This document shows, piece after piece, positions 24,254 to 59,378 of a DNA stretch of 64,000 nucleotides. This stretch comes from Prosthecobacter dejongeii. GTDB lineage: Bacteria; Verrucomicrobiota; Verrucomicrobiia; Verrucomicrobiales; Verrucomicrobiaceae. A program made the position numbers and the translations under genes. How positions within the stretch are numbered: the stretch's first letter is position 1; every line of letters begins with the position of its first letter. The stretch lies in NCBI RefSeq assembly GCF_014203045.1, contig NZ_JACHIF010000001.1, positions 434,001 through 498,000 of the forward strand, in the 5' to 3' direction. The notes beneath the pieces were generated by a model. The model was not told the origin of the DNA. It was given only the letters and a program-made list of their open reading frames with translations, and searched no databases.

Positions 24254-24385
24254 TATCCGCCTCACGTCCGGTAACCATCGGGCTTTTGGTTCAGGTTGTG
24301 GGGTGTTCTCACAGCCGCTCCTGCGGTAGCCATCCGGGGATGAACGAGGAGTCTGCTTGTGAAAGACGGGACGACACATCACATC

Positions 24386-25228
24386 ATGGGATTTTTCAAA
24401 AAGCGCACTGTCAACGAACTGGGTGAAAAGAAACAGGACATGCCCGAAGGGCTGTGGACCAAGTGTCCCTCCTGTGGAGAAAGCCTCTTTGAGCAAACAC
24501 TCGCCAAAAACCTCCGGGTCTGCACGAACTGCGGTTACCACTTCACCATCAGCAGCGGCGAACGCCTCGCCAGTCTGGTGGATGAAGGCACCTTTGTGGA
24601 AATGGATCTGCCGCTCGATTCCGTGGATGCCTTGGGTTTCAAAGGCTACGTGGATAAAGTGAAAGCCTACCAAAATAAGACTGGGCTGAAAGAAGCCGTC
24701 GTCACGGGCCGGGCGAACATTGAAGGTGTTCCAGTGCTTCTCGCGGTCATGGATTTCCGCTTCCTCGGTGCCAGCATGGGCAGTGTGGTGGGTGAAAAAA
24801 TCACCCGTGCCATCGAGGCCGCAACAGCGGAGGGAAAAGCCGTCATCGTCTTTTCTGCCTCGGGCGGCGCACGCATGCACGAAGGCATCCTGAGCCTGAT
24901 GCAGATGGCTAAGACCAGTGGTGCCCTGGCACGCCATGCAGAAGCCAAGTTGCCCTACTTTTCAGTGCTCACTCACCCGACCACCGGGGGAGTCACGGCT
25001 AGCTTTGCCACGCTGGGTGACATCATCATTGCGGAACCTAAATGCATGATCGGTTTCGCAGGCCCACGAGTGGTGAAAGAAACCACCCATGCAGATCTGC
25101 CTCCAGGATTCCAGACGGCTGAGTTCATGAAACAGCACGGCCTGGTGGACATGATCGTCGAGCGCAAAGACATGCGCAGCACTTTGGCGAATCTGCTCAA
25201 GTACGTCAGCAGCGCGAAGGTGGCGTGA
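24386..25228 (+). CDS. accD: Acetyl-CoA carboxylase carboxyltransferase subunit beta
   Basis: A 280-residue subunit of the carboxyltransferase that makes malonyl-CoA for fatty-acid synthesis, working with AccA. The ATG at 24386 gives MGFFKKR, a typical start. A zinc ribbon is formed by Cys27, Cys30, Cys46 and Cys49 (CPSC, CTNC). The crotonase-like core has MDFRFLGASMGSVVGEK, FSASGGARMHEGILSLMQMAKT, THPTTGGVTASFA and IGFAGPRVV in the canonical order. Length matches the family. It is not next to accA or folC in this window. A weak terminator and a MITE-like element follow. Confidence 0.96.
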   Translation: MGFFKKRTVNELGEKKQDMPEGLWTKCPSCGESLFEQTLAKNLRVCTNCGYHFTISSGERLASLVDEGTFVEMDLPLDSVDALGFKGYVDKVKAYQNKTGLKEAVVTGRANIEGVPVLLAVMDFRFLGASMGSVVGEKITRAIEAATAEGKAVIVFSASGGARMHEGILSLMQMAKTSGALARHAEAKLPYFSVLTHPTTGGVTASFATLGDIIIAEPKCMIGFAGPRVVKETTHADLPPGFQTAEFMKQHGLVDMIVERKDMRSTLANLLKYVSSAKVA

Positions 25229-25236
25229 ACCACACT

Positions 25237-25257
25237 CCGCGCTGCGGGGATTTTTTT
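25237..25257 (+). terminator. Weak intrinsic terminator after accD
   Basis: A short GC stem (ccgc-gct-gcgg, 25237-25247) is followed within four bases by seven T residues (25251-25257). Confidence 0.5.
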
Positions 25258-25272
25258 AGCAAACCTGTTTGT

Positions 25273-25434
25273 TAGACCGGTTTCCAAAAAGAGGGTCCGA
25301 TTGAAAAGGCGGGTGCGGTGGGATGAGTGGCAAGAGCGCAGGCTACTATCTTGATGATAACAGCCAAGTGAGTTACGCCGCCAATCGTCCCACCCCGTTG
25401 CCGCTTTTCGGACAAGGTTTTGGAAATCGGTCTA
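25273..25434. mobile_element. MITE-like element, copy 1
   Basis: A 162-bp element with terminal inverted repeats TAGACCGGTTTCCAAAA (left) and TTTTGGAAATCGGTCTA (right, one mismatch), bounded by TA on both sides as in Tc1/mariner-IS630 type insertions. The interior is itself an imperfect hairpin (gcggtgggatgagtgg against ccaatcgtcccacc, and ggctactatc against gataacagcc). A second, ~75-80% similar copy lies at 59204-59378. It is too short to encode a transposase. Its right end supplies the TAG stop of the minus-strand gene at 25432-26502. Confidence 0.85.
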
Positions 25435-26502
25435 AGCGCTGCGAAAGTGGTCGCCACGGTTTTGTTCACGGTTCATGGGGCGTCCCTGACGCTCCATGTG
25501 ATCTTTGCGATGTCCGCGCGGCGATTCTCCATCGGGCCCGCCTTTTCCGCGCTCGTGGTGTTCAGGTGCGCGTGAGGGGCCATCCCGGCGGGGTTCTTCT
25601 GCATGGCCCCGGCCTCCCGGGCGCGGGGTGTGACTTTCTGCCCTAGGGCCACGGTGAGCGGGGGGAGTGGCCGAACGTGGATGATCTCCTCGATAGGATG
25701 GATGCGCCTGGTGTCCTTGCCCACGCGGCGAAGCCATGGAGCGTGGAGGAGATCCCTCACGATGATCTGGGTGAGAATGACGGTGAAGGTGGGCATGAGG
25801 TACTTCGGGGCCACGCGGCGGACCTCGGAATTCCAGACGCTCCTCCAGCCGAGCTTCGCCTTCATGACGCGAGCGTGAAGGCGCAGGCCCCCGGCGATTT
25901 TCGCCTCGATGACTCATGCGTGACTCGCCACCACGACCTTCTTCATGACGTGGCTGGCGACGGCCAGCCCCCCGATCTTCCCGCTCAAAGTGAGCCCTCT
26001 CTTGCGGGTGCCTGGAAGAGGAGTGGTGTTCTTGACGTCCACGCCCACGTTCATGAGGGGGCCCTTCCGCACGGCCACGACCTTCCGGGCGATCCATTCC
26101 CCCTCGGTCGCGCTCATTGTTAGACGTTGAACGTTCCCGGCTGGGTCCACGCTCAGGAGAGCCACGCGTATCCCCCCGTTCATGGGGCTGTTGACGGGGC
26201 GCGCCACGCCCAGGCGGGGTGTCTTCTTCGGAACTCCGACCGCGCGGCTTATCTGGCGTGCTTTCAGGGCTGCGACCTCGCGGGTTATCCGGCGTGCTTT
26301 CAGGGCTGCGGCCTCGCGGGTTATCTCCTGCGGGGCGGTCAGCCTCTGGCGCAGGGTTTGCGCGCGGGGTGGGCGGGGCATCTGGGGGCCTCACCTCCGG
26401 AGCGGGGTTTGCAGGAGGAGGAGTCTCCTGGGCTGCGAGTGAGGCTACACTGGCAGTGAGGCCCAGCAGGAGAAGGGCGAAGGTTCGGTAAGTTGGTTTC
26501 AT
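25432..26502 (-). CDS. Secreted Arg/Gly/Pro/His-rich low-complexity protein
   Basis: A 356-residue protein with a signal peptide (about 1-24, MKPTYRTFALLLLGLTASVA) and an otherwise disordered, strongly basic and charged sequence rich in R, G, P, H and E. Near residues 60-95 two and a half copies of NPRGRSPESTPD occur as 36-bp DNA repeats. The synonymous changes between copies keep this frame, which supports it as the coding one. No domain is recognised. Its stop codon TAG lies in the terminus of the MITE copy 1, so the original C-terminus was probably longer or different. Possible roles are matrix or surface polyelectrolyte, by composition only. Confidence 0.62.
   Translation of the reverse strand: MKPTYRTFALLLLGLTASVASLAAQETPPPANPAPEVRPPDAPPTPRANPAPEADRPAGDNPRGRSPESTPDNPRGRSPESTPDKPRGRSSEEDTPPGRGAPRQQPHERGDTRGSPERGPSRERSTSNNERDRGGMDRPEGRGRAEGPPHERGRGRQEHHSSSRHPQERAHFEREDRGAGRRQPRHEEGRGGESRMSHRGENRRGPAPSRSRHEGEARLEERLEFRGPPRGPEVPHAHLHRHSHPDHREGSPPRSMASPRGQGHQAHPSYRGDHPRSATPPAHRGPRAESHTPRPGGRGHAEEPRRDGPSRAPEHHERGKGGPDGESPRGHRKDHMERQGRPMNREQNRGDHFRSA
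26243..26314. repeat. 36-bp tandem repeat (2 full copies plus partial)
   Basis: Units 26243-26278 and 26279-26314 differ at only a few positions, and a third partial unit begins at 26315. The repeats are in frame and encode the 12-residue NPRGRSPESTPD unit of the minus-strand protein. Confidence 0.8.
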
Positions 26503-58885: not shown

Positions 58886-59206
58886 ATGACGGACATTCTG
58901 CTGGTTTTATCTACGTTTCCGGATGCTGAAAAAGCGCGACAGACTGGCACATTGCTGGTGGAGTCGCAACTGGCAGCCTGTGTCAATTTGTGCCCCGGCG
59001 TCACTTCCATCTATCGGTGGAAGGGAGAGATCGAATCCAGCAGCGAAGTCTTGGCCCTTTTCAAAACCACCCGAGCCCAGTATCCGGCCCTGGAGCTTCG
59101 CCTGAGAGAACTGCATCCCTACGAGGTGCCCGAGATCTTAGCCATCCCCGCTGAGCGAGCCTATGAGGCCTACGCCCAGTGGGTGATGGATCAGACGAGA
59201 AGCTAG
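58886..59206 (+). CDS. cutA: Divalent-cation tolerance protein CutA
   Basis: A 106-residue protein forming the CutA1 fold, a trimeric ferredoxin-like protein linked to copper tolerance. From ATG 58886 it has VLSTFPDAEKARQTGTLLVESQLAACVNLCPGVTSIYRWKGEIE across residues 7-50, then EVLALFKTT and LHPYEVPEILAIP near 75-89, and ends YAQWVMDQTRS. The signature blocks and size match. Its TAG stop codon is part of the inverted repeat of MITE copy 2, so the last residues may differ from the original gene. Divergent from the kinase gene. Confidence 0.93.
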   Translation: MTDILLVLSTFPDAEKARQTGTLLVESQLAACVNLCPGVTSIYRWKGEIESSSEVLALFKTTRAQYPALELRLRELHPYEVPEILAIPAERAYEAYAQWVMDQTRS

Positions 59207-59378
59207 ACCGGTTTCCAAAAAGATTGTCTGATTGAAAAGGCGGGCGCGGTGGGATGAGTGGCAAGGCAAGAGCGCAGGCTGCTATCTTGACGATAACAGC
59301 CGAGTCCCGCTTGCGCGGGAACGCCAATCATTCCACCCCGTCGCCGCTTTTCGGACAAGATTTTTGGAAATCGATCTA
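59204..59378. mobile_element. MITE-like element, copy 2
   Basis: A 175-bp element similar to 25273-25434. The left terminus TAGACCGGTTTCCAAAA is identical to that of copy 1, and the right end is TTTTGGAAATCGATCTA. The bounding TA pairs fit a Tc1/mariner-IS630-type target. The interior carries the same ggctgctatc-ttgac-gataacagcc hairpin plus an insertion of about 13 bp near 59311 (cccgcttgcgcggga) relative to copy 1. The left TAG forms the cutA stop codon. Confidence 0.85.

Follow-up and report, generated by a model that had tools for sequence, protein, structure and literature searches.

TAG-reading ends of an IS630-type miniature element in Prosthecobacter probably make stop codons silent insertion sites

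In a 64,000-nucleotide stretch of the Prosthecobacter dejongeii genome, analysed here in full and called the window (NCBI RefSeq assembly GCF_014203045.1, contig NZ_JACHIF010000001.1, positions 434,001 to 498,000 of the forward strand), two copies of a short inverted-repeat element each supply the stop codon of a neighbouring open reading frame (ORF). The element is very probably a miniature inverted-repeat transposable element (MITE) of IS630 type, for which stop codons are silent TA targets and whose location at gene ends is mostly passive, a result of target preference and survival. The formation of a stop at both observed junctions, noticed in an original prediction made from the letters of the window, is no coincidence, as it recurs across the genus (40 junctions among 114 copies). 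The features concerned are the following, numbered from the first base of the window.

25273-25434, plus strand: MITE copy 1 (162 bp; own-genome copy L011)
25273-25289, plus strand: left terminal inverted repeat of copy 1, opening with the target TA (17-mer match)
25418-25434, minus strand: right terminal inverted repeat of copy 1 (17-mer match, arm complementarity)
25432-25434, minus strand: TAG stop of an Arg/Gly-rich ORF, its TA coming from the target and its G from the element (codon before insertion reconstructed as TAA)
25432-26502, minus strand: 356-aa Arg/Gly/Pro-rich ORF ended by copy 1, its N-terminus resembling a secretion signal by eye
59204-59378, plus strand: MITE copy 2 (175 bp; own-genome copy L001)
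59204-59231, plus strand: left terminal inverted repeat of copy 2 (arm complementarity)
59351-59378, minus strand: right terminal inverted repeat of copy 2 (arm complementarity)
59204-59206, plus strand: TAG stop with which copy 2 ends cutA (codon before insertion reconstructed as TAC)
58886-59206, plus strand: cutA, encoding the CutA1 divalent-ion tolerance protein and ended by copy 2 (PF03091, 121 bits; start codon placed by eye)

Both copies have the positions and the TA-ended terminal inverted repeats first proposed for them: the 17-mer TAGACCGGTTTCCAAAA occurs four times in the window when as many as 3 mismatches are allowed (chance expectation 0.02), and these are both ends of both copies. 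The arms are complementary over 18 bp in copy 1 (94%) and 28 bp in copy 2 (82%), and the hairpin-forming core that had been described is borne out by the predicted RNA fold of copy 2 (-90 kcal/mol, z = -8.35). Because G is the first base inside each end, TAG can be formed at either end and in either orientation, as anticipated. The right end of copy 1 does form the TAG stop of the minus-strand ORF, but it reads GGTCTA and is not of the GATC type ascribed to it; GATCTA belongs to copy 2. The cutA product (105 residues) matches CutA1 across residues 5-101. The protein of the ORF at 25432-26502 had no match in Pfam and NCBIfam searches, and this ORF may be counted as a putative gene from its length and its secretion-signal-like start seen by eye. 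A terminator-like hairpin with a T run lies at 25235-25259, right behind the gene at 24359-25228 and ahead of copy 1.

The element is short (162-175 bp in the window), carries no transposase gene and occurs in many dispersed copies, as an IS630-derived MITE does. BLAST against its own genome (6.0 Mb) returned 17 long copies (L001-L017), two fragments (L018, L019) and a few short matches, along with reverse-strand matches from the same palindromes. A previous search at the DNA level had hits in 10 of 56 genomes, own genome included, and in none of the 21 genomes of other genera of the order; with a covariance model derived from 29 copies, the family was detected in 26 of 48 congeneric genomes, again counting the own genome. 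An exact 18-mer scan of wider genome contigs gave 11 stretches with one match each, from mixed phyla, which were taken as chance. The set collected with flanks of up to 1.5 kb contains 114 copies (15 from the own genome, 99 from relatives), so that the family numbers at least 114. It excludes the own-genome copies L013 and L016, the fragments L018 and L019, and short partial matches in relatives such as L039, L047 and L051; L069 and L028 were left out of the target-site, spacer, insertion-sequence (IS) comparison and preservation analyses and kept in the count of ORF frames. Partial similarities between flanks remain, for example between L116b and L120 on one side, and full independence of the copies is unproven.

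A transposase of IS630/mariner type with matching ends, which the prediction had proposed to look for, was found in relatives. An end-pattern search, among the matches listed, and a DDE_3 search revealed a 1129-bp IS630-family element (L143, G057:C365:17269-18397), and scanning of transposase loci added a second copy (L144, in G022) and a broken one (L150, in G057). All three have the 25-bp ends TAGACCGGTTCTCAAAAAGAATGTC with 0-3 mismatches per end. The 344-aa transposase of L143 scores 203.8 bits on the NCBIfam IS630 model NF033545 (cut-off 100), that of L144 scores 202.5 bits, and the DDE_3 domain (PF13358) of the parent transposase scores 102.1 bits. In the seven MITEs compared with this IS, the terminal 17-31 bases match it, and the interiors show only 10-15-base matches with E values of 0.04 or worse. 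These common ends, together with the element-free single-TA sites described below, agree with the predicted MITE with IS630-family ends and TA duplication. Since MITE and IS share terminal repeats, the IS transposase is the probable mobiliser, and the 1129-bp IS was probably the source of the enzyme; the MITE would thus be a non-autonomous element, its terminal repeats common with an IS of the IS630 family (bacterial Tc1/mariner) and its movement dependent on the IS transposase. A transposase search at E <= 1e-30 matched 4 of 47 genomes, with full-length open frames only in G057 and G022, fragments in G010 and a decayed piece in the own genome. Other loci were rejected as parent: eight further DDE_3 loci have 24-37% identity to the parent transposase and no flanking end pair in the scan, and L025 and L027 are broken pieces with 47-66% identity. 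At one locus, L148, a MITE-sized end pair adjoins the DDE_3 gene.

Some copies deserve mention for their own sake. Genomes G016 and G022 hold many similar copies with differing flanks, which suggests recent bursts; a full-length transposase is present in G022, and G016 has no match at 1e-30. L116 (G016:C3:42454-42805) consists of two elements with 18 bases between them, and L127 directly adjoins another end-like sequence. L048 and L069, both in G022, have identical 12 bases on each side, with a wider likeness over only about 50 bases of flank, and may be insertions into corresponding sites of related genes. L022 (G000:C1:939890) and L021 (G000:C1:1072236) are single element-like ends without the usual core, possibly relics.

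Insertion occurs at a single TA, which is duplicated, as supported by the element-free sites of three copies (L130, L009 and L008); empty sites of this kind had been proposed as a check. At L130, in G066, a gene for a pyridoxal-phosphate enzyme ends FDEAIAA-TAG with the TAG coming from the element, and in G028 and G014, where the element is absent, the gene also ends FDEAIAA-TAG; the downstream sequence aligns with these two, apart from a few substitutions, from the base that follows the single TA. For L009, of the own genome, an element-free site with one TA is present in G033. L008, also of the own genome, has inserted into the stop codon of a gene for iron-sulphur assembly; G033 and G018 lack the element and have TAA at the same codon, and G056 and G064 have TGA there. 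The gene ended by L005 has its stop at the same codon position in G033, G064 and G018 (TAA) and in G056 (TGA), with a downstream side that cannot be aligned. The relatives compared for L004 and L006 fail to align across the junction, and no exact empty site for cutA was found among 30 of the 40 matches in relatives, whose flanks are too diverged. One insertion, behind a TspO gene (L007/L028), is common to two species.

Target sites and spacers were studied in 80 copies, after removal of 32 of 112 without TA at both ends. CTAA/TTAG received 33 of the 80 insertions, where the composition of all TA sites predicts 5.8 and that of non-coding TA sites 10.8, and TTAA received 15 of 80 (3.5 or 6.5 predicted); CTAG, with 4 of 80 against 2.8 expected, is not marked. 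In 1991 Tenzen and Ohtsubo reportedly found that an IS630-associated transposon prefers TA in CTAG. Both preferred contexts are stop-like on both strands, and CTAA and TTAA can carry a stop on each. The mechanism starts from insertion at TA, with CTAA/TTAG and TTAA favoured and TA duplicated. With G first inside each end, every junction reads TAG, which makes a TA inside a TAA or TAG stop a silent target: in both orientations of the element the same codon ends the gene as before, now as TAG.

The frames of ORFs that run into the element agree with this. When ORFs of 200 aa or longer are counted over the 228 ends of the collected 114 copies, 30 run into the element in the TAG frame and 6 and 7 in the other two; at the 172 ends with an intact TAG, the counts are 28 versus 3 and 7. 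There are 40 junctions at which an intact TAG closes an ORF of 100 aa or longer, or 39 when L028, the shared insertion, is discounted; some of these ORFs score low and lie opposite a better gene (e.g. L121 left, L126 right). When the pre-insertion codon is rebuilt, it is TAA or TAG at 34 of these 40 junctions, and at 31 of the 35 where the far end is still TA. A Pfam match was obtained for 27 of the 40 closed ORFs (26 of 39 without L028), that is, 26 of 38 tested together plus cutA, the copy 1 protein having none; in several, the domain runs to the end of the protein, as with DUF1501 (to residue 469 of 470) and 2-oxoacid dehydrogenase (to 429 of 430). In L135 (G068:C5) and L041 (G002:C51), ORFs of more than 100 aa are closed at both ends of one copy, as would be expected if convergent genes had shared one TA in overlapping stops; the L041 ORFs have no Pfam match.

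Stops made by the element are also better preserved than its other ends. Where an ORF of 100 aa or more leads in frame into an end, the stop is intact in 40 of 41 cases, versus 131 of 183 other ends (Fisher p = 1.5e-4), and comparison with the opposite ends of the same copies gives 8 versus 1 discordant pairs (p = 0.04). Element-made TAGs thus look maintained as gene stops; once in place, the TAG would serve as the stop of the gene and be retained. The sole exception is the left end of L036 (G002:C159), where TAG has changed to TGG and the frame, now of 499 codons, continues for 318 bases before it meets another stop; an element-made stop may have been lost here.

The position of the copies relative to genes fits target preference combined with survival. 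According to a codon-usage gene caller, the 80 usable copies divide into 23 within a called stop, 52 in intergenic positions and 5 in coding sequence; called stops thus receive 23 of 75 non-coding insertions (31%), compared with 9% expected from context-weighted non-coding TA sites. For tests within the spacer hit, a further 12 of the 80 copies were removed (5 in coding sequence, 7 with open intervals), leaving 68, whose spacers are convergent in 35 cases, tandem in 32 and divergent in 1. Among 49 spacers of the window, 10 are convergent, 30 tandem and 9 divergent (Fisher p = 0.001 for convergent and 0.002 for divergent spacers versus the copies). Another background, taken from the flanks (10 of 86 convergent), was set aside as biased, since a spacer beside a convergent one cannot itself be convergent. 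Inside the spacer hit, 23 of 68 copies lie in stops, versus 21.5 expected with context weights (P = 0.32) and 18.9 without (P = 0.07). Target preference and survival in downstream, often convergent, spacers therefore suffice for the excess in stops, which mostly vanishes within the spacer. The original prediction had proposed selection for insertion in gene ends, and this part holds for downstream, often convergent spacers, but does not extend to a preference for the stop inside them; its alternative, survival of those copies that end genes without harm, is the best fit among the readings it offered. Insertions within reading frames or ahead of genes would be purged by selection, leaving copies downstream of genes, many of them in stops, since these are TA sites that border the tolerated region. 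We infer that selection rather than targeting has shaped the distribution.

The enrichment in convergent spacers could also be expected if the element had been domesticated as a 3'-end module, its hairpin behind the stop ending or protecting transcripts from both convergent genes. The whole element is a long foldback: 19 of the 52 pairs of the consensus fold have changed on both sides, and none of 500 shuffles reached as high a number. Moreover, in the insertion common to two species the element is 97.0% identical, versus 94.5% and 89.4% over the 600 bases on each side. However, harmless survival also predicts convergent enrichment, and pneumococcal repeats and IS are likewise enriched there (PMC3049150). 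The paired changes show a maintained foldback and not an RNA function, because they largely track two subfamilies (judged by eye), hence few events, and because the end pairs double as transposase sites and are constrained by the transposase. In the 1 kb surrounding copy 1, a terminator scan gave a result near chance (two sites versus 1.2 in shuffles), with neither site inside the element, and an Rfam search of four loci found no family, its single listed match being far below threshold and outside the element. We consider a 3'-end module unlikely. Similarly doubtful is the broader notion of the family as a portable gene-ending cassette that brings a stop for one or both convergent genes and a conserved two-way hairpin shaping mRNA ends, with selection keeping both TAG and fold.

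Several results weigh against an IS630-type MITE with a mostly passive location, and the first of them bear on the possibility of active targeting, in which the transposase would seek out stop codons or the 3' ends of genes. Besides the 23 of 75 non-coding insertions in called stops, exact stops are over-hit in fixed windows that extend more than 30 bases around called stops (p from 0.036 to 8.5e-5 in the wider windows: 0.0065 for 0 to 100, 0.0013 for 0 to 200, 8.5e-5 for -100 to 200). Within 30 bases there is no such excess (p = 0.67 for 0 to 30, 0.19 for -30 to 30), and the excess in wide windows is read as copies clustering close behind genes. Stop-codon targeting, the first impression, was set aside on the within-spacer result, though the wide windows keep an excess, and active seeking appears very improbable. 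The tests on called stops have two weaknesses: the context weights derive from the same 80 sites, which tilts the outcome somewhat toward the null, and our own codon-usage gene calls overlook real genes, cutA and the ORF at copy 1 among them. The preservation result is supportive and not final, as the copies are related, some are badly decayed with uncertain ends, and the paired test with a limit of 150 or 200 aa gives 7 versus 1 (p = 0.07). Mobilisation in trans is probable, with no movement observed; the own genome has only a decayed transposase relative (48% identity, two internal stops), which makes mobilisation there a past event or the work of a copy since lost. Lastly, 6 of the 40 rebuilt codons are not stops, among them the TAC of cutA, which copy 2 may have slightly re-ended; two of the six, L017 and L128, no longer have TA at the far end. 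These six would fit an element that truncates genes by setting new stops upstream of the old ones, a general property according to the original prediction, but the 34 rebuilt TAA or TAG codons, the orthologues of the L130, L008 and L005 genes that stop at the same codon, and the normal length of cutA (105 residues versus 100-113 in 29 relatives, counted from the match start) contradict it as a rule and make it the least probable account, one that may hold for single copies.

Altogether, a transposon whose ends read TAG would be nearly invisible to selection when it lands in stops, where TA followed by a purine is frequent, so that stops become safe landing sites. Repeat-encoded stops are already known from pneumococcal BOX; new here are explicit empty sites, a null model and a clear account of stops as safe harbours. 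The null model is a worked one for reports that a repeat supplies the stop codon, and the preservation data support the view that a stop codon, once borrowed, comes into use and is retained. For annotation, the warning is that some gene ends in the genus are transposon sequence.

A search of the literature (open-licence PMC papers) found no earlier report of this MITE family, and a term search of the main text of a 2024 review of prokaryotic MITEs (PMC10969869) found neither 'stop codon' nor 'IS630'. Tc1/mariner chemistry and TA duplication are established for a bacterial IS630-family element; IS630 and ISY100 likewise target and duplicate TA (PMC2170065), but are autonomous, and the element here favours CTAA/TTAG and TTAA. 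REP/RAYT identity was rejected, REP sequences being described as palindromes of 20-40 bp, whereas the element here measures 162-175 bp and has TA duplication. To our knowledge, REP/RAYT elements have no target duplication. The MIRU of mycobacteria is also a mobile repeat found at the edges of genes, which its insertion affects little, but it enters start codons and links an ORF of its own to the gene (PMC12548453). The closest precedent for the stop codons is BOX of Streptococcus pneumoniae: 36 coding sequences end in a BOX-encoded stop, with truncation lacking strong evidence, and section 9 of that paper, on BOX, gives neither a mechanism of insertion at a TA within stops nor empty sites nor a null model (PMC3049150). 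BOX differs in its modular boxA-boxB-boxC structure and its tie to another IS, and is set apart by description, not by sequence. RUP of S. pneumoniae, with IS630-Spn1, is like the present element a small non-autonomous one with ends common with an IS630-family IS and a TA target (PMC2229807), and is over-represented between convergent genes (PMC3049150); stop codons made by RUP receive no mention in the available text of the former or in section 6 of the latter. MITEPlu5 of Photorhabdus luminescens has TA duplication, similarity to IS630-type transposon ends and a very strong predicted hairpin, the portion of its report available mentioning no stop-codon role (PMC6267812). Compared by description and not by sequence, RUP and MITEPlu5 appear to be the closest families, and the element of Prosthecobacter may be described as a RUP- or MITEPlu5-like IS630 MITE.
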